64,000 nucleotides of DNA from Nereocystis luetkeana (Eukaryota > Sar > Phaeophyceae > Laminariales > Laminariaceae), in contig JARUPZ010000010.1 of NCBI GenBank assembly GCA_031213475.1, positions 9,843,917-9,907,916 on the forward strand, written 5' to 3'. Shown one piece after another: positions 401 to 51,286 of this stretch. The notes beneath the pieces are model-generated. The model was not told the origin of the DNA. It was given only the letters and a program-made list of their open reading frames with translations, and ran no database searches. The position numbers were made by a program, and so were the translations under genes. The first letter of the stretch is position 1, and each line of letters begins with the position of its first letter.

Positions 401-469
401 TGTATACATGTCCCTTGTAGTGCCGTACCAGGTATCTGACACCAGTCTGAGGATAAACTAAAGGCCGAT

Positions 470-1034: not shown

Positions 1035-1227
1035 AAAGGGTTGAAAAATACATTGATTGACCCGGGGATGTTTAGGTATAGCCCCCCCCCCCAGCACTCT
1101 CGGGATTTTGGGCTATTTTTCCAGTGTGGATTTTCTGGGGTATTGAGCTTGTACCCACGGAAGAATGGTAGTTTTTTTCATTGGTTTCTAATATACCTGG
1201 TAGTGTTTTAGGTACTTTCAGCTACTA

Positions 1228-1385: not shown

Positions 1386-1913
1386 TAGTAAAATACTAAT
1401 ACCATGGTATTAATAATGTCTTTATGCCGAGAACTGCATATTGAGATGATCATAATATTGCAAGGTCTCCAACAGGCGAGATAATTGAAAGTTACACCGA
1501 GTCCGACTTGTGGTGAGTAGGCGAGTATCGACTCACAACGCAAAAAGAAAATGAAAAATGAATTTGTTTGTGCGAAAAGTAGATACCTGGTACGTATATA
1601 GGCGATCTCGCCGGGAATCGAACTGCGGGTACGGTTTTATTATGTACTATTAATATTAATAGTGCTGTGGTTGTGCAAGTCGGCCTTCTTATATTTATCA
1701 TCAAACTGGTACATGGGTATGGGTATTTATTTCGACACCTAAATAAATGGTTTGCGACAGCATGCGTCCGTACGGTAAGAATAAACACCAGGTACAACTC
1801 AAGTATTAAACTATCAATACCCGTATTTCGAATATTTTACTCGTATGTACCTGGTACGTATCGTTCTCGTATACTGGTACTATAAATAGGTACCAGGTAT
1901 AGAATAAGGTATA

Positions 1914-2850: not shown

Positions 2851-3091
2851 AGGAAGAAAAAGAACAAGAAAAAACACACCACTGCTTGTAAACAGAGTAA
2901 GACAAAGAACCAAGGAAAAACAATAAATAAAAATATATATATATAATTTATATTTATATTGCACTACCAGGGTAATCAAATATCGTATATATGTGCGGAA
3001 CCGAAACAAACGGGGCAGTACGTAAGATAGTTGCGTATTGAGCTTGCTACTATTAATACCAGGTATCTAACTCAGGTGAGAGACACTCGTA

Positions 3092-4339: not shown

Positions 4340-4690
4340 TCTACGAGTACCTGGTATATGGCAAGGCACCCACGAGGCAGTAACTTCATTGTGAAGCCAT
4401 GGCTAGCTCTGGAAGCGGCCAAAACAAAAAAAAAATCGGTTTATTCGCGCTATCGTAATCCGTGTGTATGCAAAAAAAAAAACTCTACAGCGGCTCCTAT
4501 TAATAGCAGGATGCAGCTCACTCGCCCTTCATGCGACTCGCCGGACACCTCACGGCGCTTTCGCGCTTGGTGCGAGCAATGCCCGCCTGGTCGGTGAATA
4601 CCCGACATGCTCCGTCCCGGCAATGTAGGGGTGCGAGGGCTTACGTTCATACGCCTACGATCATGAAGAACAATGCGTACACGCCCCCCC
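4340..4690 (+). repeat. R2 repeat, copy 1 (partial)
   Basis: Shares GGCAAGGCACCCACGAGGCA, AGGATGCAGCTCACTCGCCC, CACGGCGCTTTCGCGCTTGG and CATGCTCCGTCCCGGCAATG with the copies at 32.7 and 37.1 kb. Ends against a C12 run at 4684. Carries a TTAATA insertion at 4500-4505. Confidence 0.7.
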
Positions 4691-5002
4691 CCCCGCCCCC
4701 CTCCGACTCTTCCTTTTTTTGTGTTTTTGTTTTCTCGATTCCAGGCGGTGCCCGTGGTTGACTCCAAACGGAGCGATTGTTCCCACGCCTTTGAGATTAT
4801 TTGCCCTTTACAGCACAGGCAGTAGGTATAGCCCCCCCCCTGTTAACGGGCTGCTGTACTCGTGGTACGTTTGGGATCGGAGGCTCCTCAGATGCCAACG
4901 TCCCTTGTCAGAGCTTCGTACCGGTCCCTACAGCCACAGTGGTGCGCTGAGATTCGATGCCCCTTGCTCGTATCTAAAATATACCTGGTAGCGTTTTCCG
5001 TT

Positions 5003-5549: not shown

Positions 5550-5965
5550 TAGAAGTTGAGTGCGCATAGGGTTGCGATGGGTTTTTTCGGCGCTCGTTTT
5601 TTCCAGGGAGGGGAAGGTTTGCCAAAACACCGAGCATGGCGTTTTTCGGAAGCATCCGGTCGAGTGCGTACCGAAAATATGAAATATCGTGTTTTTCGAC
5701 CTTTTGTATATACCTGGTATGCCTTTTTCTCCCGTTTTGTCGAGGAAAAATAACGATCGCTGGAAACCCCTTGTGCGATGTTTACGCCCCTTGACGGTAC
5801 ACGACTGTAAGCGGTGTACCACCTGGCACGGCAGTATGGCGGGGCCTATACCGGTGGACTACTGCTGGAAGAACGGCAGTCGCTTTTGTTCATTGAGAAC
5901 AAATAATTGCCTTTCCGAGGACGAGTTATGAATCGACTAAACCTGGTATGTTTTGTTTTTTGTCA

Positions 5966-6442: not shown

Positions 6443-6605
6443 TTTTTGTTCCCAAGGGGGTTGAGAGATGTTCTTCCCTCACAGCAGTCATTTTTGTTCA
6501 CACCGTAGAAGATGAGGCACGTCGTATAGCCATATTTGTGACACCTGTCGATCACACCAATAAGAGGTAAAAAACAACAGCACTGGCAGTATCTCGTACC
6601 TGGTA

Positions 6606-6719
6606 TTACGGAGGACCATATTAAAGAGGACCTACGGTACGGACAAAAACCCCTGGATAAATCGCTATTTTTTCCAACAATATGTGGTCCTATTTACTAC
6701 CAGGTATGGTCCACAGTAA
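6606..6719. mobile_element. MITE copy 6 with CCAGGTA insertion
   Basis: TA-flanked; right arm reads TTTACTACCAGGTATGGTCC where all other copies read TTTACTATGGTCC or similar. The 7-bp insertion is at 6700-6706. Confidence 0.8.
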
Positions 6720-7984
6720 TAGAGAGATCGAAAATGCTATAATTTTGGTGCTCATTTGGGGTGGGGTCTGTGGGGGGGGTGCCTCCCCCATAAATGTCTA
6801 CCACCAGGTATTTTGTTGTGTCCTCTGTTCCACGAGGGGGGATGTCGAGGTTGATTGTGATGGATTGTGTTTAGTGGAATGGACACCTACGAGTATCATC
6901 TTTTGAGTATTTTTATTTGAGGTTCGATTTTGGCGCTGCTGTGAGGGAAGTACAACTCTTCGAAGAAAAAAATGAATACCACATACGCGTAGTATGTTTT
7001 GATTATTGTCGATGGATACCTGAAATGGGAAGGGGAGACTATTAATATTAATGTTTCGGAGAACCCGTTGTTTTGTTCGTAGAAGGAGCTGTTTCAATTG
7101 TTCATGAAGCATACCAGGTAGGCTTTTTGACGTGCAGCGTGCATGAACTCTTGGCCACGACTCTTCCGTGCGTGATCTAAAAGGTTTGCGTAAGTGTCGC
7201 CGAAGTGGCCTCTGTTTCCCCCCACGGAGAGCTCTACGACCACTGCTCGCGATTACCAGATACTAGCATACAGCTGTACAGCAGTAGTTCATACACTGAT
7301 ATATTTGAAGAGCGTAAAATGTCGGCACGTATATAGAACACATGTGATGTGTAAGGAGTAGTACTCGTACCGGGGATTCTATGCGGTGTCAGTCTGTCAA
7401 GTATTATTAGTGGCAGAGTAGTAAGTTACGTTGAGCGCCCCGTGGGAAAGTTGGTCCTATGTGACGAGCGCGGAAAGAGAACATTCCCATTTCAACGGAA
7501 ACGGAAGGTGTGGGTGGTGGCGTGTGTGCTCGTGTACTGATGTGCTCTCTTTCTCTGCGTTTGGTCTGTTCTTTCCACCCGCCGGCAGTCGTAACGTACT
7601 GGTACCTGCTTTGCTGATTGTTATTCCTTCCCATGAGTGAATGAGATTCAAATGCTCAACCGACGCGTAGTGCTGCGGTCTTATGGGCTATACAGCAGTA
7701 GTGCGGTAAAAAAAAAAACAGTACCGTCGTATATAGGAGTAGCCCAATGCGTAAGGCTCGGTACTGGGCCGGTTTTCACTGTCAGTACACTGGTCCCGGC
7801 GGTACATCTTCCTTGGCGGAGAGAGGTGTAAGGATTTCAGGGTGTTGGAAATTTACGTACGTCCCACTCCAACGCCTCATAATACAACGGAAACCCATCG
7901 AGACGCCTGGCTGGGCTTGCCCATGCCCTCTCTGCCCGGCTGTGTACGTTGACTGTGCTGCTGAGGGGGTTTCTCTGTACTGAA
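6720..7984. other. No gene seen
   Basis: Unique-looking DNA with three TACCAGGTA words and TATTAATATTAAT at 7033. Short open frames only. Confidence 0.5.
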
Positions 7985-8270
7985 CGGGTGGACGGCCCCT
8001 CTGTTTTTAGGCTTCTGCGGGATCGACACTGTCTTGTCTGCTTGTGTCGATTCGCGTGAAAGCGTGGTAATCTGGCCCTCTGCTTAAGCTGCTCTGTGCT
8101 GGGGTGTGAGTCTTCCGCGTTGTCGGTACAGCAGTCTCGGTTTCCGTCGGAAGGGGGTAATCTGGCCCTCTGCTCACACCAAGCCTGCTGTACTGAACCT
8201 TCCGCAACCTCGGTACCGTCTCCGTTCGCAAAGAAGTGGGGGAATCTGGCCCTCTGTTCAGGCTGAGTGT
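7985..8270. repeat. Degenerate ~85-bp tandem repeat
   Basis: The word AATCTGGCCCTCTG recurs at about 8068, 8158 and 8243, with a GGCCCCTCTG version at 7993. It makes a 169-codon - strand frame (7837-8346) with repeated EQRARLP-like units, but I see no sign of a real gene around it. Confidence 0.6.
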
Positions 8271-9090
8271 CCCTTTTATCAAGTATTCCCTTCTTCTGGT
8301 TATTCTCTGTTGCGTGCGCGTCTGATAGGTCTTTTTCCTGACTCAATATACCTCTCCTGACCCAAACTTTACCTTAGAAATACGGCCGCATAATGAACTG
8401 TTTCTTTCTCTACAGCAGCAGTATTGATAGTAGTAAAGACGAATGGCGTTAACACGCGCCTCCGACAAGGCCCTATCACCAGCCGGGGGGGGGGGGGGGT
8501 TCATTGGTCGGGCGGTTCCACAGTGAGCATACTCACAAAGCAGTACTTTCAGGACCGGTAGGTTACATACCCCTCTGGCAAAGGGGTTTCGTACGGTTAC
8601 GTTTGGCTTTTTTGGGCTGAATTTCTCTGTTTGTTGCTCTCGGCGCCAAAGGACACCCCCCCCACAAGCTGCATGCTGGACCTGCGGCACCAGCAGATGA
8701 GTCCGTATCACGCCTGCTGCGTATGGCGCATTTTGAGCACACGCCGATCAATTCGTACTATAGTTCGGATGTAAATATCTGGATGATATTATTGATATTA
8801 AATATCGTCGTTTTGCTCGTTTTGTAAGTGGACATCGCTTCGTGGGATGGTGATTATTGTGATTGTGAATGGTTGATGCGTTCCAAGTTCCCGGTAACTT
8901 CTTACCTTGTGAGAACTATGGGCTCTCACCGCAGTCTTACCATCGCGAGTTTCGCGTGCTTTATACCAGGTATGTTTAAATGTTCCGAAGCATGGGTGTG
9001 CCATTATATCATTTTTCGTCTCGTGTGCATGCAGGTCGTACCGTCGGTGTTGTATTCGGCGGTATTATACCGAGTGACGGGATGACACAT
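8271..9090. other. No gene seen
   Basis: Holds a G14 run near 8487 and a C-rich run near 8658. No supported feature. Confidence 0.5.
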
Positions 9091-9094
9091 GTTG

Positions 9095-9160
9095 GCATGT
9101 CGACATATAGAAAGAACGGTTTGATGTGAAGAAAATACGCAAACGCACACACAGGAACGA
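9095..9160 (-). repeat. R1 copy 4, terminal fragment
   Basis: GACATATAGAAAGAACGGTT and TGATGTGAAGAA are the reverse complement of the R1 left end; faces copy 5 head to head. Confidence 0.6.
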
Positions 9161-9245
9161 ATTCTCCGAGATGAGTGTCTCTGCAACTTCAGCGGGGGCG
9201 GGGGGGGGGGGGAAGGGGGGGGGTGGCACCCGCTACGAAGACAAA

Positions 9246-9595
9246 ATGTGTGTGTGTTGTTCACATTAAACCGTCCTTTCTACCCGTCGACATCCAGCAG
9301 AACCAGTGTCCGTGCCGATTCTCCAATCCCAGAAGATATACAAGTTCTGTGGTCACAAAGCTACGCCACAGAGATACACTACGTTGCCACGTGTGCGGTA
9401 TGCACTGCAGTGGGCAATGCAAAGCCATGTCATCATGCTATTAATAGATACGACAGGCACGGCATACACAAGCTATGAAATAGTGAAACGAAAAGAAACA
9501 ATCAAAAGAGAAAACAAAAACAAAGTAGACAAATCGAAAAAGAAAAAAAAAAAGAAAAAAAAATGAAAGCAAAAACTAGAAGAAACAATCTGTCA
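9246..9595 (+). repeat. R1 copy 5
   Basis: Almost complete R1, ending at AACAATCTGTC. It has TTAATA inserted at 9441-9446 relative to other copies. Confidence 0.7.
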
Positions 9596-10179
9596 AATCT
9601 CGGCACGCTTTATAGTCGTATGTCCATTTTGGTAGTAGACGAATAGCATCGCTCGGGGTCCGTACCCTCCCCGTTGACGATCGCGCAGATCTGCGTGGGG
9701 GTTCAGGCTTCAGGCGAACTTCCAATCGGTACGCAAGATGTGCCCGGACAACAAAAAAGAGCCTTTCCAAGCACGACCGCCAGCTGGCACAACCAACCAA
9801 GCAGTAGGCCTCTTTCCAGGGCTAGGGTAGAGGAAGAGCTCCGAGTCGGGGTGGTATCGGCAGCGGTCATTATTACTGCTAGGGATCTTCTAAGGACACA
9901 TTTGGCAAATTTGTAGAATAAATAGCAAGTTTTTTGCCATTTCATTCGGTCGTTAGAAATTACCTTTTATGAATAGTCGAAGCCGGACATGATCTCACAT
10001 CGGGGGGGGAGAAATCCCTGTACGTTCTTACATACAACAGCAGTTTCGTGACAAAATCATTCCTCCCTCGCTTTTTATAATTGAGCAGCACATTGTTTAT
10101 TCGAGCCCGTCTGAAAAACTTCGCCTAAACGGGCAGGTGGTACACCAGCTGTCCTAGAGTTGCAACCCGATTGACTGAG

Positions 10180-10290
10180 AACAGGGTACCCGGTGGCGGG
10201 TACCCGAAACCGTCGGAACCGGAACCGTCCCGGTCCAACTCACGGAATCGCGGATATTTTTACTCCGGGTACCCGGGTACCCGTCAATTG
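10180..10290. repeat. GGGTACCC-rich segment
   Basis: GGGTACCCGGTGGCGGGTAC and CCGGGTACCCGGGTACCCGT; dense KpnI-type palindromes. Followed by CAATTGTTCTATACGG, which also follows CCCGGGTGT at 13390. Confidence 0.6.
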
Positions 10291-10323
10291 TTCTATACGG
10301 AGCCCCCAACACTATTAATATTA

Positions 10324-10745
10324 TAGTGTGTGTATTTCTTCACATTAAACCGTTCTTTCTACCCGTCGACATCCAGCACAACCAGTGTCCGTGCCGATTC
10401 TTCAATCCTAGAAGAGATACCTGGTACGAGTTTTGTGGTCACAAGTCACAAAGCTACGCGACAGAGATACTACGTTGCCACGTACCAGGTACCAGGTATG
10501 CGGTACGCACAGCAGTGGGCAATGCAATACCATGTCATAATACTAGCTAGCTCCGACAGGCACGACATACACAGAGAAACGAAAGGAAACAACCAAAGAG
10601 AAAACAAGAACAAAGAAGACAAATCCAGAGATAAAAAGAAAAAAAAATGAAATAAAAACTAGAAGAAACAATCTGTCGTGCCCCACCCCCCCCCCCGCAG
10701 GCGAGGTGGCCAACACTTGAAAAAGAACGAGCTGGAGAACAAAAA
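10324..10745 (+). repeat. R1 copy 6
   Basis: Complete R1. It carries a CCTGGTA insertion at 10420-10426 and a double CCAGGTA insertion at 10485-10498, plus a 7-bp duplication GTCACAA near 10445. Confidence 0.75.
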
Positions 10746-14950: not shown

Positions 14951-15949
14951 ATCATTGACCCCTTCCCCCCCACCCTATTTTTGGGGGGGGGCGCTGTCAA
15001 AGAACACGACACAGCGCGCACAGCACACACAGCACACAGAACAGAAATCCCAGCGGCAGCAGCTCACGCACATGGGAGACGGCGGGTCGCTCCTCCTGGG
15101 GATCGCTCGTGGCTCAGACAGCGGGGGATAAAGGGGGTCCTGCAGGTCTGCTGACGTTTGTAGAATCTTGCAATGGTTGTGACACGCACAAGCGACGACA
15201 CACCCGTCAATTTTGAAGTGTTGTGGGGTTGCTGTGTTGGGCTTGATTTGCGCTCTTCCGGCCGTTTTCTTGAGGATACTGGCGTTACGCCGCCCCCCCC
15301 CCCCCCTCCCGCCCGCGGTGTTTCGGGGGGGCGCGGTGTTGCCGTAACTGCCGTACGTAACTCCAAAAGCCCCAAATAGGCAATTGCCCGTAAGTGATTC
15401 ATCCCAACCGCGGTAATCGATATCACTGGAAAAAAATCGTCCGAGGGGGTGGGTGTTTAGTCTTACCTCCCGTGTGATAGTCTAGTTGTAATACCACCTG
15501 TAAATGCAGACCTCAGGAGGGACGTACCGGTAAATTAACGCAAAATTGAACGAATTGTGGCCCAACCGCTCGCAAGAACCGGGACCGCAAAAAACAAAAG
15601 TTGCCAGCACTATTACTAACCCTACAACTACGAAAGCGTACGTATTTTCAGGGGTGCCTCGTACTGCTGTCGTACTCTCTATGTTCAGGTATTTTTCACG
15701 AGTGGCTTTTCATAGCACGAAAAATCCCGAAACCGCCCGAAGAAAAAATGCGAACTGCGATGTGATTTTTGAGAACCGATGAAAACCTGATGCTGCTGTA
15801 CAAGTATTTACACAGGCCTGGGGTCAAATGAGGCCTCGGGCCTCTCGGCTGTGGCAGCAGTAAGACACGTATGCCCCTCAAAATATATATATATATATAC
15901 CTGGTATATATATATATTATATTTCAATATCACTTTTACTTTCCAGCTT
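14951..15949. other. No gene seen
   Basis: C- and G-rich runs at 14966-14990 and 15292-15308, an AT dinucleotide tract at 15882-15920 split by a TACCTGGTA word. Confidence 0.5.
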
Positions 15950-17109: not shown

Positions 17110-17934
17110 CGGACAGATCACGGTCTACAGGTCTGCAGTAGATCGATTACTCGTACGATCGTAGCTATATTTATAAAGTTGAAAAACAACCGCTGTGAAA
17201 TCGAAACGAATATTTTCAACCTGTGTGTGATAATTCGATCGCGTAATACGTTTACTACGGGTTTTATATGGTCTCGTCCAGGAAGTACAGCAGTCCGTAC
17301 ATGGGGAAAACAAAATTCTGAAGGTGTAGAATTGAAGGAGTGGGTGTGTCCATGTTTGGGAAATAATAAAAAAATATATATTTTTCGAGGTTGCACGTAT
17401 TAATAGCTTGTCACGTAACAGCCCTGATTGTTTACTGGTCCCTCTGATCATTTACTCTTTGTAAGAACCGTTTAGCCGTTCAGATTGCATCAAAACTGCT
17501 GTACCCGTAGGCAAAAGTGAAAAATAATCGTCGCCGGCCGGAGCCTTCGGACGGTGCCTCAAGCGGGGCCCTTGGCCGATGGGCTAAACGTCCCAATGTG
17601 CTTCGCCGATTGCCGGTATCAGGTACCATGTACACGATACAACTTTGAACGGTAATATAGTCACCGTTTATATTTTGGTATGAACGTCAAACGGAGCTTA
17701 TATTGCCGGCCAGACTGGTACCAGGTACCAGGTATTCATTTCCCTACTGGACAACCACCTGGTACACCTGGGCCAGAGCTTGGCGTAGTCGTATGTGCCT
17801 GGTATGGTTTCTCTGTGTCAATGCGCAGCAGCAGTGCACAGCAGCAGCAGCAGCAGCTCCTTATGGTATTTATAGTATTTATAGTAAACGGACCGCGTTC
17901 TCGTGTAGATGGAGTTTTCAAGTCCAGAAATCTT
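17110..17934. other. No gene seen
   Basis: Mixed composition; CAG run at 17838-17853 and a double TACCAGGTA at 17716-17733. Confidence 0.5.
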
Positions 17935-18240
17935 GTGATATGGTACAGATCAGGTACAGATAGATGATCTAGATCGTCAACCTACTGTGTGGTATATCCC
18001 AGCCCGCCGATCTGAGGTGCCGTGCAGGACTTGTGGAGTGCACAGCTCCAACCCAGGAAATATGTCCTACAACAGGGGTAGATCAGGCTCCCAGCCGGCA
18101 ACGTGAGCTATTTTATACCTGGTAGATCATACCTGGTACAGATCATGGATCTATCTATCGGCCCTGAAAGAGCTAGCTCTTACGGTGGGAATTGCATGTA
18201 GATGATCTGTAGATGATCTGTCCGAAGTGTGAAACTAAAG
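17935..18240 (+). repeat. R4 AGATCAT-rich repeat, copy 1
   Basis: Shares CCAACCCAGGAAAYRTGT, GTAGATCA, CCAGCCGGCAACGTGAGC-like and GATCTGTCYGARGTGTG with 21830-22105. Rich in GATC palindromes at both ends. Confidence 0.6.
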
Positions 18241-18525: not shown

Positions 18526-18929
18526 ACGTGTATACATATAATACCCTTGTATATTACCTGGTATAAAGTATGTTTATACACATATCTGGTACGTACACGT
18601 TTCTCCTCTTAGAACAACGTCGCGACATGGGTGTGTATTTCTCGTGTGATACCTTATCTGTACACCAACTGCTGCTGGGCATGCAGGGGGCAAGCCTGAA
18701 CGCTAACCGCAAGTTTGGATCAAAATTCTGTCTTCGTGGCCCGCGCTTTTGGCGTTCGAAGTCGCGGCGAGCGGACTCTTTTCGCGCGATCATTTTGTAC
18801 TCCGAGCCAGAGCCAAGCAGGACGTTGGAAACCCCCACAAAAAATAGTGAAAATCGTTCTATGTAGCAATACACGTTTTATTACCATCTACCATCCTGTC
18901 CGTGTTTCCTGGTTTCCACATCTGCCTGC

Positions 18930-20625
18930 TTGCCCTGGTTACCTTACTTTGCCAGACTACTTACTGTTGTGCACATCAGTACGTACAGCATTCATAGCAT
19001 CCTGTATGGATACACTATTGGCGGATTATAATTGCCGTTCTGTCCGCTCGCCTTGTTGCCTCATCATTTTGTTATTTGATCTTACCTGACACCCGTATTA
19101 CCTGATGACCCTCGTACAGGTGTTGAATATTTTCACTACGATTACCATATTCCTGATGGCCACATTTTCTATTTTCTGCGTTGACCGGCTTTCCCTATCC
19201 ATACTTTCCGCACCGCCTAATGGCCATGCCGCCCGGTTTCCAAATTCCGGGATGACTGATAACTGACGCACCTCTGGGCGGAAAATGAAGGGAAGCTTGG
19301 TCTTCAAATTGATCGGGAACCGATATGAGCATAATCTACAGTTTTTGTTGTGGTATAGAGAATTCGGCGTTATGGTTCATATTCTTGGGCTGAGCACGTA
19401 CAGTAGTACGTACGCGCTCACTTCGACAGCAGCGACTGGCGCTGTTTGGTTGATCGAGCTTGTGGGGATACCGAGTGGATACCGTACGGAACGGTCCTGG
19501 CAGACTGGTAGAACACGCGAACAGACAGGGCTGTTGCTTGCAGCTGGACAGCGGTCGCTCGCTGGGCCAGGTATTTGGGGATTTCTGGTATTAAACGGTC
19601 CTTGTATTCCAGTCCGGAGTAGTACGTACGTAACGATGTCGGCTGGCTACCATGTTGCCTATTCGCCATGCTTGCTTGTCTACTACTGTAGCCGTTTGCC
19701 TGCTTTTATACCATTTACCTGGTACCACGCTACCATGTTGTCTGCTAAACATATCGCCTGGTTGTCGTATTGCCGTATCGTGAAGACCGTACTGCCTGCT
19801 AAGCACGCCGCCTGCTTGCCATGTCGCCATAATACCTTATTTTTGTCTGCCAGGTGCGTCGCCTGCTTGCCATATAGCCGAAACACCATGTTGCCTGCTT
19901 GCCATTAACCATGCTCTGAATGTTTCGTGTTGCCCGCCAAACACGTCGGCTGATGTCTCGGGCTTGACACTGACACAGTATGTACTGGCAGCAGTCATAC
20001 ACTGATTGGCCTGGCCAGTAAGTTCCCCAGTATGTAGCGTACACCCAAGAAATACGCCTAGTTGCAGTGCGGAAAACCCTTAACCGCGTGTCCGGAGGAG
20101 AGAGGAAAGACAGCAGTATACTGCTGCAATCCAGTGTACTGATTTGATTTTGACGACAGTATAATCGCTCACGACTGAGTGTGCCAGTATGATTTTGACG
20201 ACAGTATAATAATCGCTTACGACTGAGTGAGCCAATGCCCAGCCCTACTGGTTTCCATGTGGCCTACTTGGCCATGTTGCCCAATATACCGTTTCCCTGC
20301 TATATACATCGCCCGATTACCAAATTGCCTGCTTGCCAGGTTGCCATACTATTTCGGAGGAGCAAAGTAAATAGGACTTACGGTAAACGCAAAAACCTAT
20401 ATACTTCGAAGTATTTGCCTATTTTTACTAAGAATATTTGGTCCTATTCACTATGGTCCGCTGTGATATCACCGTGTCACCTGCTGTTGATTGAATACAC
20501 GGCCAACAGTATTTTCCATATTGGCTGCTTGCCATGTTGCCACACTACGAAAGTTCCGTGCTGCCTGTCTAAACACATCGCCTCGTTACGATATTTCCCG
20601 CTTGCCCTATTGCCTTGTTGCCTGC
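18930..20625. repeat. Degenerate TTGCC-rich array
   Basis: Words such as TGCCTGCTTGCCATGTTGCC recur at variable spacing from about 18930 to the exon 1 acceptor, interrupted near 19100-19640 and by the MITE at 20352. Long frames here (for example 19285-19908) are products of the repeat. Confidence 0.55.
20352..20466. mobile_element. MITE copy 8
   Basis: TA-flanked, ends degenerate (TTTCGGAGGAGC / GGTCCGCTGTGA); 160 bp upstream of exon 1. Contains a CTTCGAAG insertion-like palindrome near 20405. Confidence 0.75.
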
Positions 20626-20720: not shown

Positions 20721-23700
20721 GTAAGTTTTGAGGGATACATGTCTTAGAATTCAGTGTGAAATATAAGTTTCGGTTTTACGGGGGACCATAGTTAATAGGA
20801 CCTATGGCATACATAAAAACCTATGTATTCAACCATTTTTACTAACAATATTTGGTCCTATTAACAAGGGCCCCCGTAATAGTACAGCAGTACAGTAGTG
20901 GTTCAAGCAAAAACTGACACATGCCCCACAGATGAGATAGATCAGATAGATCACGATCTGCGGCGGATCATCTGTAGACCCGAAGCCTTTTCAGTACCGG
21001 GGTCCCGTCTTGGGGACAAACTACCTGGAATTTGAGTGTAAGCTCCCCAAAACGGGGCTGTTTTTTGCCCTGGAAGGGTCACCTCTTAATCCTGCAGAGT
21101 CTCGTTTTGGAGAGTAACTAGCATACTTGAAGTTTGAGTGTATTGTCCCCAAAACGGGGCTGCAGTTTTTCGTTCGCCCTAGAAGGGTAACTGACCTGGG
21201 CCAAGTTCAATCCCTTAGGACTGCCCTCTCGTTTTGGGGACAAACATGACTTGGAGTTAGACTTTGATACAGCAGTGGGTACCCCGACGTGACAGAGAGG
21301 TTTGGTACAGGACGAAAACGCCATCTCATATATACCCTTCTCTCTTCCGCACAGTGAAAAAAAATATACCAGGTACCTGGTATTGCTTTGGTGCTGCCGG
21401 GTCCAGCCGATTTGGCATCCTTTTCGTGTTGTCCCTGATTTGTGTACTGTATGTCTCATGACCATGATCCTCCACTCGCGCTACCCCCCCCCCCCCCCCC
21501 CCACCCCGCCCGTACACACGCCTTACCCCTGCCGCGCGCTGAATAGTTTCTTGTGTAACCGTCGTCTCGGTTTTTTTCGTAACCGTCGTAACGGTTTTTA
21601 CTGAGACCGTGGTTGTTAACGATGGTTGGCATGTTTGGGCCCTTTCGATTATTTTTTTTGTTTTTCGTTTTTTTTTTTCAGGCCGGAAGTAGGAGCGTTG
21701 GTGGGGGCACTCGAACCGGCGGCGTTATTGTTGCGGGCGAAGCGACGGAGATATGCGGAGTGAAGTTCGAGGGCAACAAGCTACAGCTCGGGCAGCAGGT
21801 ACGGAGAGGCATATATATATATTGAACATCTCGGACAGATCATGATCTATCTGTCCACAGATAGATAATATAGTTCCTCACCTGCCGTTGTCAGAGGTTG
21901 TCCAGGATCTGTACAGTACAGACCCAACCCAGGAAACGTGTGCTACTACTACTGTAGATCATCCAGATTGCACTGATCCCACCCGGCAGCATGAGCCAGG
22001 TCGTACAGATCAGGGCTCATATGATATATCTGACTCCAAATATCTAGATCATCAAGTGGGAATAATCTGCATATGATCTGTACGTGATCTGTCTGAGGTG
22101 TGGATAGGTAGGTCGTGATTGGTGTAACCTATATTTTTTCAGGACTCTTCACGGGTCACGACCCAACCCGCGGGTCGGGTCAGGAGGTCTTCAAACTCTT
22201 CACGGGTCACGACCCAACCCGCGGGTCGGGTCAGGAGGTCTTCAAACTCTCACGGGTCGGGTCAAGTCGGATCGAGTCGGATCACTCCTACCCGAGCCGA
22301 TCCGACCTGGCCCGCGAGGTTTGACCCGCCCTTGAACAGCCGTGATGTTCTGTCTACACTCCGCGATGTTGTGTACCAGTACCGGGTATGATCTCGTTGG
22401 TTTTTAGACTTGGATGTGTACAGCTTAGGCCCGGCAATAAGAAAGTGCCCAATAAGAACATAGTGCTCACTTTTTGGAGAACGCTAAGAAAATTCTGCCA
22501 CGAAAAACGGCTCAGTGGTAAACTCTACACTAAAAAATACTACCAGGTATGTAATAGACTATGCTCAAGGTTGTTTGGAGATGGCGCTCCAATATGAATC
22601 TCAGGCTTGCCCCGATTAGGTGTTTCTTTCTGGCGGGACCTTACTGCTGTAATTTGTCACGACATTCCTAATCAGACAAGTGAAATATCTGGAACCAGGC
22701 ACTAGGTATAAAGTACTATTACGGGGGACCATAGTTAATAGGACCTGTGGTGTACATAAAAACCTATATGTTTCACCCTTTCTACTACCAATATTTGGTC
22801 CTATTAACTATGGCTGGTCCTCCAGAGCACCCACTTTTGGAGCGTGTACTTGGAGAACTACTGCGTGGATCGAAAATGTGGTCTTTGTGAAATACGCGGT
22901 TGATGATAGGCGTTCTTCGTCGATGCTACATTGGTATTTTTCCGGAATGCATTGGAAAGCCCGTCTCCTCCCGTTTGGGGCCCATACTTCGTATGTTGCG
23001 GGCCACCTTGATCTGATATGCGTACAATAGCATTGGATGCTTACATTATATCCACCAGGCACGTTGCTTATGCGCATGGTATGATGTAGTCCATGGTGTA
23101 GGATAGACTACAGAAGCCTGCTCATACTGCCGTGCCAGATACATTTTGTGACGGTGCATACCCACATGGAATATTATACCAAGTTTTATGATATGCCTGG
23201 TACACCAGGTATAGGCAGCAGATACATGGATGGATAGATAGCGACATTTCAGTATCTTGACCCAACGGTGTTTTTACTTTCCCAACGTCTCTTTTATTGA
23301 CTCGACGGCTGATTTTATTGACACCCCATGACTCTTTTTAGTGGCGCCGCTTTGTCTAGGCTCAACGGCTCTTCGTGTTGACCCAAGGACTCTTCGTCTT
23401 GGCACTCAGCGGGTCTGTGTGTTGAGACGCAGCGGCTCTTTTAGAAGCAGTCCCGTTTTGGGGACAAACCACTCAAATTTCAAGTAGTTTGTCCCCCAAA
23501 ACGGGACTGCGGTCCTAAAGGGGTTAATGCTGAGACCCAACGGCTCTTAAATGTTGACGCACAGCGGTTTTTTGCGATAAAATCACACAACTTTACCCAA
23601 GGTTGGGGAACATATTACTTGGGCTCAGTACGGTTTTTTTTTCAGGGTGAAAGTGTTGACCTTGGCACCCAGCGGCTTTTATTTAACCCACGCGGCCCAT

Positions 23701-25268
23701 ATGACTATAGTACCATACTACAATGTTACCATACTACACGTGTGATGACATAACACACCTTCTCGGGTGAATTTCGGAGCTGATTTCTTCGCAAACGGCC
23801 GAAGAGTGCAAACGCCTACGTACGTTCAAAACTATGTATAACGTCTACCAGTATGGAAATATCTCGGCGAGATCTTCCCACCATTTTTCGTTGCGTGCGT
23901 GCTCCCGCTTGGTTTTGGAGGCAATCGGCTTTGATATTTATCGCGGGTTTATCGCGGGGGGGGGGGGGGGGGGTGTTATGTTTTACAGCCGTGCTGTACG
24001 GGCTGTTATATTATCACACATGCTACACGGGGAGCCTATCTGTATCACACCTGTTTTACGGTGTGTGTTGATCACCCGGTGTGATACGGTCTACTTTCCT
24101 CCATGAGGTCATTGGTATGCCGTCCCCATGGTGCCCTCGATCGAAGTACCACACGCAGGTCGCATGTGAGGAGCTGTCGACTCGATTTTCGAAATGTCGC
24201 AGCTGGTGAGAGGTGCCTTTGCAGCGTGTCTGTTCGACTGTTTGCCCGGCGAAGCGTCTTTGCACGGTATGGCCCCCCCTACAACAAACGCCTGCCAGGT
24301 ACCAGGTGCCTGGTACGTATTCACGGGAGAACACAGCAACCAGGAACAAATATGCCGAGTAAAAATGCTGGAATGTATACATATAATATTGTGTCATGAT
24401 GGGTCCTGATTTCTATGGTCCCCGTAATAATCTGACCCCCCAGTCTTGAAAACCTTAACCCTTTCAGAACTCCAGTCCCGTTTTGGGGACAAACCACTCA
24501 AGTTCCAAGTAATTTGTCTCCAATTGTCCCCAAAACGAGACTGCAGTCCTAAAAGGGTTTAGGCGACACCCTCGTTTGACCTTGACCGTATACCAGGTAC
24601 TATTTAATATTTGGGTATTATAGACCGCTCTGACTGATAGTATTTGCCCCGCTTGGTCTCTTGTTTTGAGTATCAAACGGGGCATGTGTTCCCGGTCAGA
24701 GTCAGGGACCAGCGTATGTAGCGGTTCACCGCTGACCACGTTTTCTCAGTTCGATTTTCTTGGCGTCCCACCAGCCAGGAAGCGAGCCTTACTGCGTTCT
24801 TGTCCTCAATAGGAGGGTTACTGTTATTACGGGGGGCCATAGTTAACAGGACCAAATATTGTTAGTAAAAATGGTTGAAATATATAGTTTTTTATGTGTA
24901 CGATAGGTCCTTCCTGTTAACTATGGTCCCCCGTAATAGGTGCATCAGGGGTACATGTACAAGAAAACAAAAAAGGAAACAAAAAAACGGGGCCGCTTTT
25001 GCCACCATGCCGGAATTGAAAACACACTGTATACGTACTCGTACTCGGAGTGGGTTAACCCTTTTAGATTTGCAATCTCATTTTGGGGACAATCCACTCA
25101 AATTTTAAGTAGTTTGTCCCCAGATCGGGACTGCGGTTCTGAAAGGGTTAAGAGTTTTGTCAGACTTGAAATACAACCTTTTTTTGCAAGTTTTGTTTTG
25201 TTTGACGTCAGTAAGTTCCCCCCCCCCCCTCTGTGTGGGACTCGAAAATGAAGTGATGTTTTTGTGTG

Positions 25269-25299
<31 letters not shown>

Positions 25300-28200
25300 T
25301 TTTTTCGTGTACCCTTGGTAGGCCTACAGTCCTGTTTTCTTGTATAAATTGTCTCTCTGCCCACCGCTATTGTTACAACAAAAGGATGCGTCGAGAACCT
25401 TTGAGCCTAATGCGGCCATGGTGGGGGGAGGGGGGCCCAAGTGCAAGGAGCAGCTCAAGTCGGCGGTTACCGGGGGCTGGCATCAGGGGCAGGCCTTTTA
25501 TTACAGGTGCGTGGACAGAACTCTTGTTGTTGTTGGTTTTTGGTGGTGGTGGTGGTGGTGGTGGTGGTGCTATGGTTGGTGTTGGTGCTCTTGCTGTTGG
25601 TAGTGTTGGTGTTGCTGCTGCGCTGGTGTGGTGTGGTGTTGGTGGTGGTGATGTTGGTTGGTGGTGTTGTTGTGTTTTTCCAATGTAGCCACCAGCATTA
25701 TGCTTATTTTTATTATTTTTAGCATGAGTATTATTATTAACCCTTTTAGGACCGCAGTCCCGTTTTGGGGACAAACTACTTGGAATTTGACTGGTTTGTC
25801 CCCAAAAACGAGACTGCGGGGTTGAGAGCTGCTTGCCTATTTCCCCGGCCGCCTATTGTATACGGCATGCCTAAAAATGTGTCCAATGCCGTTGTCAGTC
25901 GAGTGAAGCCGGAGATCCACGCCGTTCGATGGAAACCCTTTTTTTTTTTAGTTTTCATGCCTTCCACCTGAGCACACAGTTGAAAAAAGTACACGATGAT
26001 TCGCCGGCACGACTTCCTATTCAATGATCTTTGTTTTCTTTTTTACGTTCAAAATACACATGAGCTGACCGAGAACCGCTCGTCGAAAGTCATCTTTTGC
26101 GAGGTGTTTGCCGTCGAAGGTAGAGACAGGGGTAGATCGTGTCTCGTACACCGTTTATGGGGATATACCAGGTACCGTGTATCGAGATCTGTCATTTATA
26201 ATGTGGTATCGCAGGTGACCTGTGTGGTAAGCTCATATCGGATATGCCTTGAATACGAAGTATTCCCGTCGTAAATAGTATATTCACTGTTGTATATCGT
26301 GTTTGACATAATATTTTACACTGGTTATCAGTGTTGAACTTTACCAGATACCTGGCATACCTCGAGTACGTTCATCGTGCGCTATTGGTACAGTTTACAT
26401 CGTTCATCATGCATCGTGTGTACACTGCCGTACGCACATCGTGCGTTCATCATAATATTTTCTACTATCATTATGTGTGTGGTAGGCTATCCGTCGACCG
26501 ACCCGGACGCTACACGGTGAGGCTGACGATGCTTTTCTACCACAACGACAAGCGGAGAGGAGACGGGATCGTCCTGGGGCTTGAGGGCCTTATCGAGGTC
26601 AGTCCAAACACGCTAGCGCAAGGCCAGAGGCCGCCAGCCAAAGCACCGAAACACGTTGTTGCGGTTGCTGACCGGCCAACTGACGGAGGGATCTTCTGCA
26701 CCGACCCACTGACACGACTGGCACCCTGTTGAAGACGGACCTACTGCGTTGACCTACTGACCTACCGAGTGGCTTGTTGAATATTTCTGCTGCCGTATTG
26801 CCATACATGCTGCTCTGCTCTTTGTGCTACTCTGCCCTTAACTGTCATGACCGTTTGGCTACTATTATACTGGCCTACAGTGTTGCTGTAATAGTAGGGG
26901 ATAGAGCATACGTACGTACTACTCTGTTCCAAAGATATGGACCGTTTGGGTGTTAGTACTCGGTGCAAACGGTCCAGATATATCGGATACAGTGGTAGGC
27001 TGGTACAAATTACTGTACGTGATGTTGCAATTGCTGTACTATGAATAGCGACCCAGAGTACTACTGCGGCTGGTGCACTATACCTGGTATACTAAGACGA
27101 GTATGTATCAGGTGTACTGTTTATATCATGCACTCCTGTCGTGATACTGCTGTAATATTAATATTGTTGTGTACTGTTAACGAAATGTACTGCTGTTGTG
27201 ATACCGCTTACAAGTAGTAATATTGTTTTCCATTGATTGTATTGCCTAGCCTCGCACTAATGGTGCATACCACTAAGTCTTCAAACAGAGGATTCGTTTG
27301 TATATCAATATGAAATCAGAGCGTTCGTTATATTTTGGGGCAGTGTATTACAGGAGTGCGACTTTCACCAGAATTGCCCTCTTACTCAATTGTATATATA
27401 CCTGGTAGTCAGTATGTATCGATACTATAGCATTGCAGCAAGGCGATTTCGGCAAGAAGTGCGCTATCCTTGATATTTATAATATATCGGTATATGTCCG
27501 AGGTCGTCCGGAACAGTCTTTTTTCGAAACCCCACGTCAAAAAAGGTCAGAATGGGCTCCGGGCAGGGGGGGCGTCTCTAGAACCATGTGATCCAAAACT
27601 GGAAAACAAAACAAAAGAAAAACATTTTCTTTTTTTTTTCCTAAATCATCCTGTGATCAATCACATCGCTCCGTTTTGTTTCCCATTCTTCCCTTTTTTA
27701 TACGGGGTGTGGAGGAAAAAGTGTTCTGGGCGTCCCTGGTATGCCTGGTGTATTGCAGCTGCGCGATTTTCGCAAGCAGTGCGTTATTCCCCCAAGATTG
27801 TGGTCGGATAATATAGTGTCGACAGCAGACCACACACTTGAGTTCCGCAGCTTCAGATGCTGTTCTCCTCTGCAAAGGGACATGCATCCCTCGTAGGTGA
27901 GCTCAAATAAAACACATACCGGTATACCAAGGGTACCAAAAAAAAAAAGGAATAAAAACGATATTATTGTGGCAACTCTCGCACGGGCAAACGCCAGTGA
28001 CAAACGACACGCATGGTAGGTTATATCGCAACAGGCACATCGCAAATATATTGATAGAACACGACAGCGCACACAATCTGCAGGGTAGGGGTTTCCGAGG
28101 AGGTTGTCTGGGCGTTCGCAGGAAAACCCCCAGCAACAGCACCTACAGTAGCACCAACAGCAGCAGCAGCAGTAGCCCCACACAGAGCAGAACAGGGCAT

Positions 28201-31200
28201 GTCCCCTCCCCCCTCCCTGTAATGCTCTGTCTGGCGTTTTCCCAACGTCGAGTTTCGAAAAAAACGATGTCAGTTTGCTTGGTACACCGTACGTGTTACG
28301 TTCGCTGTGATCGCTGTTCATCGTTTGCTGTCATAGCTGTCATCGTTTGCTGTCATAGCTGTCATCTTTTGCTGTCATAGCTGTCAAATCACAAGTTGCG
28401 GTGGAGACGGAATGCTTCCGAAAACACCTGACACAAAAAAAAACATGGGAAAAAAATGGAAAACCGCAAGCAGAGTTACAGACGCACCAGTACAGCGCCA
28501 GAGCAACAGCAGCATCAACAGCAGCAGCAGCCGCAGGGAGAGCAGAGCAGGACCTTTAACTATTGATTCCCCCTTCTCTCCTACTCTTGCTTTCCTGAGG
28601 CATGCAGCAGTGTTTTGCTCTATCTGGTCGTGTTTCAAACATGACTTGAGGTTGCTCTAAAATTTTTTAGGGTGGGCACCTACGATGGTACGTACGTTTG
28701 TTTGCTGTCACAGCTGTGAAGACACAGGTGTCCGTGGTGACGGGATGCGAGCAAGTCGTGGCATTGCTGACACCTACGATGGTACGTACGTTTGTTTTCT
28801 GTCACAGCTGTGAAGACACAGGTGTCCGTGGTGACGGGATGCGAGCAGGTCGTGGCATTGCTGACGAAGTACGGACTACTGTTAATAATCGTGCCGTGCG
28901 TACGTCACCTTCGGCGCTGACGGCCTAAAGCCCTCCTGCTGCAGGCTATTAATAGTCGCGCTGTGCATCGTCGCCTGCCGTCAGCTTCTGGCGCCAGACG
29001 CCAGCCTGCTTGGGCTTGTCGTCCCGACCGCCTGATACGGACCGAAGAGCTAGCAAGTAGCACCGACCCTGGGTCCTGAAAAATGTAGTTATATTTATAT
29101 ACTTTTTTTACTTCGCATTGATACATTACTGATGGTGTGATCTATCCATTTTCCTGCATCTGACGAATATTCGACGACAGGTCAACCTGCAGTGCGTGGT
29201 TACCCAAGGCCGGGTCGTTGTGCCTTTGGCGAAGATGAGCGAGCATGCGGACGACTTGGTGGGAGTGGTGGAGTTCGACACGGTGGCCCTTGATGGAGAG
29301 ATTCTCCTCGTGCTCGAGGGCATGTGAGGCATTGATATACCTGGTAGTTTTGGGTGTCTTGTGCACTCGTGCTCGAGGGCATGTGAGGCATTGATGTACC
29401 TGGTAGTTTTGGGTGTCTTGTGCACTCGAGCTCGAGGGCATGTGAGGCATTGATGTACCTGGTAGTTTTGGGTGTCTTGTGCAGTCAGCACATCAATACA
29501 TAGCACGAGTAGTATTCAAGGAGTGGTCGGGTCGAAGTTTCCGGGAAATTTCTGGGCATTTTTTACACCCGCTGCTATCCATGGTGTTGAAGAAACACCG
29601 ACGTCATCCCAGGGGGGGGATAATTATAAAAAATCCCCTGATTGGTTGACGTAATTTACGCACCGGTTTTTACAAAACTGCTGCTTTACCGTATCTATAG
29701 GCGAAAGGTTTTGGACACTATTGGCGTTTTGTATATCCGCACCCTGAGATGTATCCTCGCCGAGTTCTCGAGGGCGCTTGGGGCCACGAACCAGAGGTAA
29801 CAAACACAATGTACGACATATGGATGCATATACCGTGTAGTTCTATATCACACCGAGTGACAGAATAACACGCCCCCTGAGACCGTTTTCGAAACCGCTT
29901 TTTACCAAAATAGGGAGGGGGTGCACGCAACGACTAAAGGCGGCTTTACGAAGATCTCGTCGGGATATTTCCGTGGGCGTACGATCTGTATGCAGGCGTT
30001 TGCATTCTCCCCGATGGTCGAGCAAACCGGTTGTAGTCACAGTGGCACTCCTCCGAGGGGGTGTGCTACGTATCTTACTACGAAGTATTTATACACGTGT
30101 TACATGTATATACGGTATATTGTGTCCCATGACTATCTAAGAGGTATGGCTGGTCTGTCCGTGTTGTTCGTCTTGCCCCCTGTTCCCCCCAGCCCTTCCT
30201 CGGTGAGCAGAAAAGGGTTTGCAGTGCGTTTCGTGGTGGATGGGATGGCGATGGTGGTGATGATGGCGGCGGTCCGCCTTTGGAATTTGTTTTTTTTTTC
30301 AGTTTTTTATCCTTGTTTCGCGTTTGCCCCACGGTTCGTGTTCAGCATTGATTTTGGGCCCGTGGTAGTGGTTTCAGTTGGGGTGTATGCATACCGTGTG
30401 CCTGGTATGAGCTATCGACTGTTAGTTTTGTGTCCATGAATTGGTTTGCTTCGTGTCCCGTGGCTTTCGTTTGTTTGCTTGCCGTGTGTTTGTCCACGGT
30501 GTCGCAGGCGTGTGCTGTTTCATACCTGGTACTCTTGACGATTTGGTGATTCGTGTGGTATCAAGTGTCTTGTATTCTACCAGGGAAGGAGAAAAAGGCA
30601 AGATAAATGCCAGCTGGGAATTGTCGTGCTCCTTTTTCGTTGTACGCGCGATCGATTTATCACACACGCCCTGCAAAGAGAAGTTTCGAGGGAAATGCCG
30701 ATCTGACCATGATCTCACGACTGGGTTTTACTTCGAATCATTTCACAACATGTATTCGTACGAAGTACAGGTCGATGAGACACCTTCTCAATCTTGCAAG
30801 TTGCTTGCTATGTACCAGGCACGTATTGCCATTTTTGCATGATTTCCCGACATCTGTTTTCCCAATGCCGCTTCCATTTCCCTCAACCTGCAACAGTTAC
30901 ACGTGCGTAGGCCTCTCCCTAGTGGAAACCTTTTTTCACGAGGAGCAGCAGCTCCACATCCCAGGCGTGGGAGGAAAGGCGGTGGCAAGGGCAGGCGGCG
31001 GCGAGACTAGTTCCTCCTCGGAACAAGGCGCGGCGAGGTTAGCGCCTCTGAAGGAGGCGTGGGGACCAGCGGGGGGACTGTGCGCAGATAGGTATCGAAA
31101 TAGCGCGATTTCAAGGACCTCTTCCCAGACGAAGCCGGTACCGGCTGGCGAGAAACGGTAAGATTGACTGCAGACAGCAGACTGCCGACAATATATATAT

Positions 31201-44350: not shown

Positions 44351-45533
44351 GCGTCAAAGCGCGCACGCTATATGTACTGTGCATCACTCAAGTGTTGCTG
44401 TATTTGTGTTTAGTTTATTCGAGTGCGCGTTTTAGTGTACAAGCTCGTACGCGTTCGAGCGTGCTCGTCTACTATATACCAGGTGCCTGGTATATGTTTT
44501 TTTCTGGTTTATTATCGTTTTTCATTGTGTTCCCCACCATGCCACATCTTTTTTACACAAATCAGTGACACAAAGCAGTGATTGATCTGATCGGTGTTTT
44601 GGCTCCCACTGCATGCATTTGTGTAGATACATGCACTTCGCATGTCTGCATGCACAGATATGCTGTATGCCTGTCTGTGCCTTCAAGAAGCCGTACGTAC
44701 GCGAAGGCCTGCTCCTGCAGCAGAAGAAACTGCCCTGATAGGGTGGCTTGGAGCAACTGGCTCGTTCCTGGCAAGCGAATCGTAACAACGAGGAAGGTAG
44801 ATTCGAAAGACTGGCTCGTTTTTTTTTGGCGAGCGAGTCGTGACGGCGAGCGCGACGTGGCTGGATGGGGTGCGGTTTGGCATGTGCGCTTGACCTATTG
44901 CAAGACGGCGGGCACAACTAGCAGTATCACACACATACAGTTGCGCTTTAAAAAAAAATGTGCTCGCTAGCTACTGAAGACTTTTGTTTGGTGTTTGCGT
45001 ACTCTGCCCGGGAACATAGTAACCGTTAGAGCTCTAACATGACTGTTCAACTGGGGTTATCTTGCCGACGAGAGTGGTGCGTATTTTTAGAGCAGCGGAA
45101 CTGTTGAAGCCCGTCTGAGTTTTGATTCACATGGTAATAGTTTTGTAGCGACCTGAAAAAAAGAAAAAAAACTAACGGCAAGTGTATGTGTGTGTGTTTT
45201 TGTCAACCTTCTCAATGGTGCAAGCACAAGAGCAAGGTTCTCTTTATGGTGCCGGTAGTGCCGGTAGGGTATGCGCCAACCCAACAACACCGGCGCCATG
45301 GCGGCAACAGGCACTTGCCGCACCGGTCAATCTCATCTTATCTGTGCCAAGCGGTTCCACAGGCAATAGGGGGCAGCCGGCCCCAGGAGGAGCCACTGCT
45401 GCCGTTTGTGCCAAGCGAATTATTTTACAGGCACTGTGTAATATGGGTGGGGGCAGCCCGCATTAAAGAGGGACCCCCACCACTTCCAAGCGTCCCGGGC
45501 TACCGCACTTTCGCCTCTCGTGGTTGGCGCCTT
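44351..45533. other. No gene supported
   Basis: Frames at 44578-44970 and 45186-45644 are open but lack family or splice support. TATACCAGGTGCCTGGTATA at 44474 is a perfect long palindrome built on the TACCAGG word. Confidence 0.45.
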
Positions 45534-50099: not shown

Positions 50100-51286
50100 A
50101 GTAGGACAACAAGGCGTGGGGGGTTAATAGGAGGCAGGAAGGCGGGGGGGGGAGGGGGTAGTAGGGTGGGAGAGCGGGGGGGGGGGGTGTTAGCGAAAGG
50201 CTTGTGCCCTTCCCGTGCAGTCGATTTTTATTCACAGACAGAGGTCGTGCCGCGTGTTTTTTGAGATTTTGCCGTCCCTCTACTTGAATCTAAATGCCCG
50301 GAGGGGTTTCCATCCGCTTCATTGACTGATTCCGCGAGGGCCAAGGACTTGTCTTTATTTATGGGCGCCCCTGGCTTGTAAACTATGTTCCATCATATTG
50401 AAGGTCGAAGGCCTACCCACATCTACTCGATGCTATGGCCTACCTCGCTCAACCCAGTAGTTGTTTTCTGAGCAAGATAGGCCGAGGACATCAGGGAGGG
50501 GGTGTGTCTTCTAAGCAATATCTTCAGTGATACCATGTCATACCCGCCTTTTCCGTTTTACCCTTTATGGCACAGATACTGCTACATGACAAAACACTAC
50601 AACTACTAAGGGTAGATCTTATCAAGAAGTGTTTCCCAGTTTTTTCAGTATTTTCCCGGAATTTCGGTATTTTCCTATAGTAAAAAACCAAGAAATACCG
50701 AAATTTCGGAAAATACCCCCAAAATACTAAAAAACAGTCGCCCTAATGGTGACGTAGAGTGTATATAATCTAGGGATCGAGCGCGAGGGGGAGTTGTGGT
50801 GCATTCGGTGCAAACCTCCGCGTCTCCTTGTCGGTATGTGTACCTGGTATGGTAGATGGTAGATACGTTGTGTGTCCTTCTGCGGTGGTGGGGCAATACA
50901 GCAAGCTGCATGACCGTTGGTAAGCAGCAATTATTTTCGGCGGATTGTTGGGCATCGATACACACTACAGTGCAAAACTATCGCCGCTAAGTTCACTGAT
51001 TTACGCGAGGCTCAGTCCGCACAGCTAGCAGTAGTGTGTACGACGACAACCACAAACAGCAGGAGGCAGTAACGTATTGAATTTCCAGGCACGTACGAGG
51101 TACTGTATCAGTGGTGTGTGTACGAGTATGCGCTCGCTTCTTTTCTCGCCCCCATTCAGCTTCTCTATTCTATGAACTTGCTTCGAAGATCAAAGTACTA
51201 CAGCTATTTGTTACTGCTGTTGTACAGCAGCACTGATTGCACTGTAGTATGTACGAGCACTGATTAATGGTGCTCCTCACGATAAA
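50100..51286. other. No gene seen
   Basis: G-rich to 50195, then mixed DNA. A loose palindrome, TTTCGGTATTTTC against GAAAATACC..., lies at 50650-50735. Confidence 0.45.

Follow-up and report, generated by a model that had tools for sequence, protein, structure and literature searches.

The excision footprint of Sleeping Beauty is written TAC(A/T)GTA and contains a three-letter CAG/CTG scar, that of Minos is TACGAGTA/TACTCGTA, and piggyBac, which targets TTAA, is known for its precise excision. Here, the word TACCWGGTA is described from a stretch of 64,000 nucleotides of Nereocystis luetkeana (the window, whose numbering is used throughout) and from the 465 Mb assembly of 1987 contigs to which it belongs, and this word is with good probability the excision scar of a TA-specific cut-and-paste transposon family. 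For the Sleeping Beauty and mariner transposases it was reported that three-base 3' overhangs, derived from the ends of the element, persist as footprints flanked by TA copies (PMC7827188), and Stowaway and mariner elements were described to leave end sequence together with target site duplications (PMC4561436). A review prints the Sleeping Beauty footprint as TAG(T/A)CTA and states that piggyBac leaves none (PMC2874221), PIF/Harbinger elements were described to make a 3-bp duplication and to excise mostly precisely (PMC4561436), and a comparison of rice DNA transposons found 8 perfect excisions out of 94 (PMC4423477). Work on the transposable elements of Ectocarpus assigned almost 12,000 copies to 17 Mariner-Tc1 families, the word 'footprint' being absent from the main text of that report (PMC12477816). 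Within the open-licence papers searched, TACCAGGTA, TACCTGGTA and TACCWGGTA were not found as whole words, and among the literature matches listed no title or abstract start describes such a scar.

In the window TACCWGGTA occurs 41 times, as compared to a mean of 0.48 and a maximum of 2 in 100 dinucleotide shuffles and to 1.13 occurrences expected from an order-3 Markov model; the initial annotation, made from the sequence of the window alone, had noted dozens of occurrences, and the nine positions it gave as examples are right within 3 bases. After masking of simple repeats and of later copies of long repeats 33 occurrences versus 0.93 were left, whereby the word had the lowest p among the 973 direct-duplication words tested in the masked window. 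A TA on both sides was identified for 41 of the 179 CCWGG of the window but for only 2 of its 124 CCSGG. Throughout the assembly 182,395 copies of TACCWGGTA (approximately 0.4 per kb) stand against 1,744 of the reversed word, and 15,917 double units against 2 for the reversed control, hence the genome-wide excess, the lack of which the initial annotation had named as speaking against its proposal, does exist. Shuffles, Markov model, masked window and reversed-word control together rule out chance or base composition as the source of the word, whose exact form is far commoner than each single one-mismatch form. Approximately 345 kb of the 465 Mb were read, part of this being chosen for holding a TACCWGGTA unit or the repeat R1, and the individual scans covered 64 to 345 kb. 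In the 274 kb made up of the window and 21 further stretches, 117 copies are present; four stretches picked for holding a double (L051-L054) were excluded from this word enrichment and retained in the flank, source-search, indel and MITE1-copy analyses, the counts of which are slightly inflated as a consequence.

Comparison of repeat copies within this one genome, from which the empty sites were taken instead of from orthologous alleles, documents that the unit is an insertion. The R1 copies outside the window were 16 of the 48 listed matches, namely the ones closest to copy 5, together with any located in stretches already read; a row for L061 in the site B listing is no R1 copy and was excluded from the counts. 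At R1 site A, TACCTGG is present in one of 22 script-matched copies and absent from the other 21, and as most copies are without the unit, the direction of change in R1 is that of insertion. Site B of window copy 6 holds two units (TACCAGGTACCAGG), L062 reads TACCAG at this position, i.e., TA-CCAG-TA, and the empty TA form is that of the window copy near 610. The initial annotation was right in describing an insert at site A and two tandem units at site B, but the form it gave for the other copies at site B, CACGTATGC, does not hold, as 21 of them read CACGTGTGC and have no TA there. Site C is empty in 13 of 23 copies, and 10 differ from the empty form, eight of these by different clean TA-x-TA inserts; six of the inserts occupy one TA, and the remaining two (CCTGG in L105 and CCCAGG in L104) the TA immediately preceding it. 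The other inserts include TTAA, TTAAA, TAAAA, GCGC and CAGAG. Window position 10519 carries a less clean ninth insert (TA-GC-TA), and L092 differs otherwise. This pair of adjacent TAs (window 9414-9460, R1 copies L091-L106 and L062) constitutes an insertion hot spot. Besides R1, the miniature inverted-repeat transposable element MITE1 was found to be affected: as the initial annotation had recognized, its copy 6 gains 7 bp at a TA, both filled and empty forms were seen, and the insert (6698-6704) is absent in four self-alignments, the printed one of which reads AACTATGG. Internal TACCWGGTA is present in six MITE1 copies (window, L057, L063, L067, L073 and L076; L088-L090 were excluded from this survey). 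The copies of both repeats thus bear out clean 7-bp indels at TA with the TA being duplicated, as was claimed at the outset.

An indel spectrum was obtained by self-alignment of 328 kb (L064, L083 and L088-L090 excluded), in which differences in length from 3 to 24 bp were considered if their flanks passed a filter. It comprises 489 distinct length differences between repeat copies, 59 of them tandem-like, which are counted as events with the derived side judged for R1 and MITE1 only. Among assignable 2-bp duplications TA is most frequent with 40, followed by TG (14) and by AA, TT and GT (13 each). CCAGG is the commonest TA-flanked insert (7 of 40), followed by CAG (5), and CGAG, TCAA and a 12-base word were seen twice each; CAGCAG, TTAA, CTTCGAAG, CCAG, CCA, CCCAGG, a double unit and others occurred once each.

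The sites of TACCWGGTA share a symmetric target preference, namely RTAY plus a further TA 7 bp off. In a matrix of 243 distinct flanks, read outward of the unit after removal of tandem neighbours and duplicate flanks, T is enriched at +1 (0.48; background 0.27) and A depleted (0.05; 0.22), with A at +2 (0.37), T at +3 (0.41), T at +6 (0.46; 0.24) and A at +7 (0.47; 0.30) following; within the window, 18 TAs are spaced 7 bp from a unit, as compared to 6.3 expected. When words were scored for this signature, the z values obtained may count related copies repeatedly, as duplicates were removed for the matrix only, and that of the exact word is circular. One-mismatch variants carry the signature, with z 3.3 for CACCWGGTA, 3.8 for TGCCWGGTA and 5.9 for core mismatches, but it is missing from CCSGGTA and TACCGGTA (z -0.7 each); 8 of the 12 TACCGGTA of the window sit in a satellite at 16390-17064. 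The signature is likewise absent from TATTAATA, TACAGCAGTA and other TA-N5-TA words: the flank preferences of TATTAATA and TACWGTA differ from it, that of TACGAGTA is weakly similar and TACAGCAGTA has none at the threshold used. As an observation in its own right, further TA-flanked words are enriched in the same 274 kb, i.e., TACAGCAGTA (37 vs 1.3), TACGAGTA (51 vs 10) and TACAGTA (98 vs 40).

MITE1 served as positive control. This element of 109 bp has inverted ends and many copies, and its outer flanks (56) show G at +1 (0.59) and T at +2 (0.59), a target preference for C-TA-G. TATTAATA equals TA + TT + AA + TA and hence the scar expected from MITE1 if two bases per end remain; its 102 flanks (+1 G 0.63, +2 T 0.50) match those of MITE1 at these two positions, it is present 45 times versus 3.8 expected (274 kb), and R1 copy 5 holds it where L101 has a single TA. 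From the shared preference of MITE1 and TATTAATA, the excess of TATTAATA and the comparison of R1 copy 5 with L101, the flank test was concluded to be able to pair an element with its scar, and it is very likely that excision scars accumulate in this genome.

Words related to the unit were used to ask which element end could have produced CCWGG. The flank signature is shared by the shorter cores CCAG (28 vs 13, z 5.4) and CCA (61 vs 38, z 3.0) and by the longer CCAGGG (6 vs 0.9, z 3.4), CCATGG (5 vs 0.4, z 2.6) and CCAGGCACCTGG (3 sites, z 2.8), whereas little or none of it was identified for CCT (z -0.9), CCTG (z 1.3) and CCTGGG (z -0.5), CCTAGG not being seen at all (0). CCTGA (z 2.3) and CCCGG (z 2.8) score as well; given how many words were compared, the lower z values can be taken as hints only. 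A source end reading TA-CCAG(G) is suggested by this pattern, and in the whole genome TACCATGGTA was counted 3,002 times versus 623 for its reversed form. CCWGG would result equally from a self-annealing five-base overhang and from CCA overhangs of three bases that overlap in one of them.

Based on this, a transposon family is assumed that would enter at a TA framed by the loosely palindromic RTAY and by more TAs at a distance of 7 bp, whereby the TA becomes duplicated. Upon exit, a staggered cut would leave behind a few of the outermost nucleotides of the element as CCAGG (CCTGG on the opposite strand), enclosed by the two TAs, and host end joining would seal the product TA-CCAGG-TA, the net gain being 7 bp. 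TA-CCA-TA, TA-CCAG-TA, TA-CCATGG-TA and longer joins may be minor products of the same family. The initial annotation had likewise proposed a footprint, a proposal which is strengthened by the TA-duplicating indels (TA 40, others at most 14), by the symmetric target preference and by the MITE1 control, but its argument that the A-or-T centre reflects a resolved mismatch is uninformative, because CCTGG is simply CCAGG read on the complementary strand and the two are a single word.

Candidate sources were sought by scanning for inverted ends around TACCWGG of the window, for clusters downstream of TACCWGG and TACCWGGTA, for TA-flanked inverted repeats, for TACCAG ends ranked by their outer flank and in the DNA around transposase matches. 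Pfam DDE_1 gave at least 28 matches and DDE_Tnp_1_7 at least 4; Transposase_1 gave none, though controls gave none either. L086 (G000:C7:10116000-10121500) contains a DDE_1 element with a 542-amino-acid open frame inside the inverted ends TACAGTACCGGCCCGCTA, a related end being present in L082. TACCAGG adjoins the L086 end, but the related L082 end starts at TACAGTACCGG, for which reason TACCAGG was taken as a neighbour and L086 rejected as CCAGG source; it is possible that this element gave rise to the enriched TACAGTA scars. A 367-bp inverted pair with CAGCAG ends in L070 was rejected too, its ends not being repeated elsewhere in the sequence read and its inner stretch resembling R1. The Mos1-like end TACCAGGTGTACAAG has 6 exact matches in 465 Mb and hence probably no large family here; within one mismatch it occurs 281 times versus 25 for the reversed form, and by eye count 26 of the 87 one-mismatch rows with letters read TACCAGGTATACAAG, which contains the exact scar. 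In viral sequence, nine contigs with the double word hold 2-3 single-word copies per stretch and were taken as chance, and no match was obtained there for a MITE1 word or for the reverse transcriptase of the window.

Several results weigh against an excision scar. The scans, which covered 64 to 345 kb, brought to light no element that starts with TACCWGG or TACCAG and has a matching inverted end, so that the search for a TA-CCAGG.../...CCTGG-TA transposon, which the initial annotation had recommended, came back empty and tied no transposase to the scars; Pfam DDE_3 gave no match, no CCAG ends were seen around the 12 of 28 DDE_1 matches inspected (mostly 1.5 kb each side) and no CCAG-ended element at any of the four DDE_Tnp_1_7 matches. 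So many scars without a found source are odd for cut-and-paste transposition. CCTG was doubled as well in the local sample (18 vs 9.2), and genome-wide, where the control is cruder, TACCTGTA (20,551 vs 8,021 reversed) is more enriched than TACCAGTA (46,688 vs 29,541), for which reason the strand asymmetry of the source end is unsupported at this scale. The flank score is less than fully specific, in that GG[AT]CCTA (z 8.6), AAAACC (z 8.6) and (TA)n words also rank high, which was put down to MITE1 sequence and runs of TA. Of the first 59 plus-strand rows listed for doubles, 40 are same-base, 14 A-then-T and 5 T-then-A (eye count), hence some doubles may stem from local duplication. Finally, the eight different inserts at two adjacent TAs of R1 are more diversity than one family would leave.

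The last point leads to a variant of the excision-scar idea with overlapping odds, namely that several related elements with a CCAGG-type end produced a mixture of scars. Besides the R1 site C inserts, the enrichment of other TA-x-TA classes (CAG, CGAG, CAGCAG, TTAA) fits this variant, but CCWGG taken as a whole has one flank signature, and the variant is regarded as rather unlikely. The missing source would be explained readily if there never was a transposon, i.e., if a TA-specific nuclease followed by repair or templated synthesis added CCWGG and a copied TA directly. The failure to find an element in the scanned sequence despite 182,395 scars, the frequent doubles and, in the window, the excess of TAs spaced 7 bp from a unit agree with such direct insertion; however, five fixed letters require a template, the related words that are shorter or joined and share the flank signature resemble trimmed element ends, and MITE1 with TATTAATA is a seemingly ordinary pair of element and scar in the same genome, which renders direct insertion improbable.

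Slippage or expansion of the heptad TACCWGG would account for the excess of same-base doubles (59 rows listed) and has a parallel in 40 bacterial contig stretches, where the heptad stands at least three times in tandem. It can explain part of the doubles only, as most copies are single (182,395 words versus 15,917 doubles) and located at TAs whose relatives have no heptad, and as general explanation it is very improbable. Slightly less credit still is given to a protein-binding or methylation motif held by selection: the word is palindromic except for its centre, abundant and in its exact form far above each one-mismatch form, but it is present or absent among R1 and MITE1 copies, one copy lies inside a microsatellite, and one-mismatch copies retain the flank signature as neutral relics would; this reading was rejected. 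The excision-scar reading therefore stays the preferred one, and under it the scars may far outnumber the resident elements and be a main source of small insertions in the 465 Mb, excision being near-obligatory (programmed or very efficient) or the family extinct; this extension is tentative and considered doubtful. As no element was found and no transposase linked, the scars were not filed in a named family.

Table 1. TACCWGGTA units, related insertions and the repeats holding them in the window.
Position	Strand	Feature
426..434		TACCAGGTA
1194..1202		TACCTGGTA
1584..1592		TACCTGGTA
1848..1856		TACCTGGTA
1891..1899		TACCAGGTA
3057..3065		TACCAGGTA
4348..4356		TACCTGGTA
4982..4990		TACCTGGTA
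5711..5719		TACCTGGTA
6597..6605		TACCTGGTA at left terminal TA of MITE1 copy 6
6604..6721	+	MITE1 copy 6 (109-bp TA-TTACGGGG family) with inserted unit
6698..6706		TACCAGGTA, 7-bp insertion within MITE1 copy 6
7112..7120		TACCAGGTA
8964..8972		TACCAGGTA
9439..9446		TATTAATA in R1 copy 5, hot site C; scar class paired with MITE1
10326..10736	+	R1 repeat copy 6, three units
10418..10426		TACCTGGTA at R1 site A
10483..10498		TACCAGGTACCAGGTA, two units at R1 site B
15898..15906		TACCTGGTA amid (TA)n microsatellite
17719..17734		two tandem units
18116..18138		two TACCTGGTA units, 14 bp apart (18116, 18130)
18555..18563		TACCTGGTA
19716..19724		TACCTGGTA
20402..20413		TACTTCGAAGTA, different TA-flanked palindromic insertion in MITE1 copy
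21367..21382		two tandem units, centres A then T
22541..22549		TACCAGGTA
24300..24315		TACCAGGTGCCTGGTA, longer variant
24591..24599		TACCAGGTA
26166..26174		TACCAGGTA
27081..27089		TACCTGGTA
27399..27407		TACCTGGTA
29338..29464		three TACCTGGTA (29338, 29397, 29456) in 59-bp tandem repeat, taken as one event
30523..30531		TACCTGGTA
40325..40333		TACCAGGTA
44477..44492		TACCAGGTGCCTGGTA, longer variant, same class; class shares the flank signature (3 sites, z 2.8)
50841..50849		TACCTGGTA
52056..52064		TACCTGGTA
53101..53109		TACCAGGTA
55146..55154		TACCAGGTA
57663..57671		TACCTGGTA
58097..58105		TACCTGGTA
61717..61825		MITE1 reference copy, TA-TTACGGGGGACC...GGTCCCCCGTAA-TA, positive-control element

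Apart from the features of Table 1, a second MITE-like family with the ends TA-ACCCTTTTAGAAC was identified (window 24456-25150, L061 and L068); A at its outer +1 position (0.85 of 26 flanks) suggests a TTA/TAA duplication. Genes for tRNA-Val at 56-129 and 1922-1995 start two copies of a repeated unit of approximately 330 bp, suggesting a tRNA-derived short interspersed nuclear element. Two frames with reverse-transcriptase matches (RVT_1, one below the family cut-off) at 11716-13324 are likely to belong to a long interspersed nuclear element. L064 (G000:C5:3010001-3020000) has a G+C content of 0.26 versus approximately 0.5 elsewhere, contains no scar and may hold masked bases.

If the excision-scar reading is true, departures of transposons, events that usually escape notice, are recorded in this genome in countable form: scars stand at approximately 0.4 per kb, some have empty relatives, several classes of scar each show a target preference, and a positive control is built in. 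Past transposition would then become countable, perhaps datable, without surviving elements, the 7-bp events would mark repeat phylogenies, and host end joining of element-end overhangs would be testable through scars.

Compared with the systems described so far, piggyBac differs in that the target here is TA and letters stay behind, and PIF/Harbinger in that a 2-bp TA duplication with a 7-bp gain is found instead of its 3-bp duplication. Tandem arrays of (TACCWGG)n occur in bacterial metagenome-assembled genomes (Acidimicrobiia, Chitinophaga, Gemmatimonadetes and others; L010-L049); the heptad is the same, but it forms head-to-tail arrays there and mostly single insertions at TA here. Minos leaves a TA-flanked four-letter scar, a word that is enriched here (51 vs 10), its core being different and its flank preference only weakly similar. 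Stowaway-type MITEs, moved by mariner-like transposase (PMC4561436), are alike in their TA target and end-derived scars, and MITE1, leaving TATTAATA, appears to behave as such an element; its ends (TTACGG), however, do not give CCWGG, and no CCAG-ended MITE was seen in the sequence scanned. The reported 5' end of the Mos1 mariner, TA-CCAGGTGTACAAG (PMC2642840), has CCAGG as its first five letters beside TA, as here, the longer end being rare in this genome. With the IS630-Tc1-mariner superfamily the scars share the 2-bp TA target duplication (40 versus at most 14 among 489 events, relatives holding one TA), and the form of the CCWGG scar fits the trait of end nucleotides remaining between two TAs, the end sequence assumed here being TA-CCAG(G). 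The three-letter scar of Sleeping Beauty is not what was found: the core is CCAGG, and TACAGTA forms a separate enriched class with other flanks. Tc1/mariner footprints such as that of Sleeping Beauty are alike in the duplicated TA and the few end nucleotides between the TAs, and what differs from them is the five-letter CCAGG core in place of three letters and the scale of 182,395 scars.

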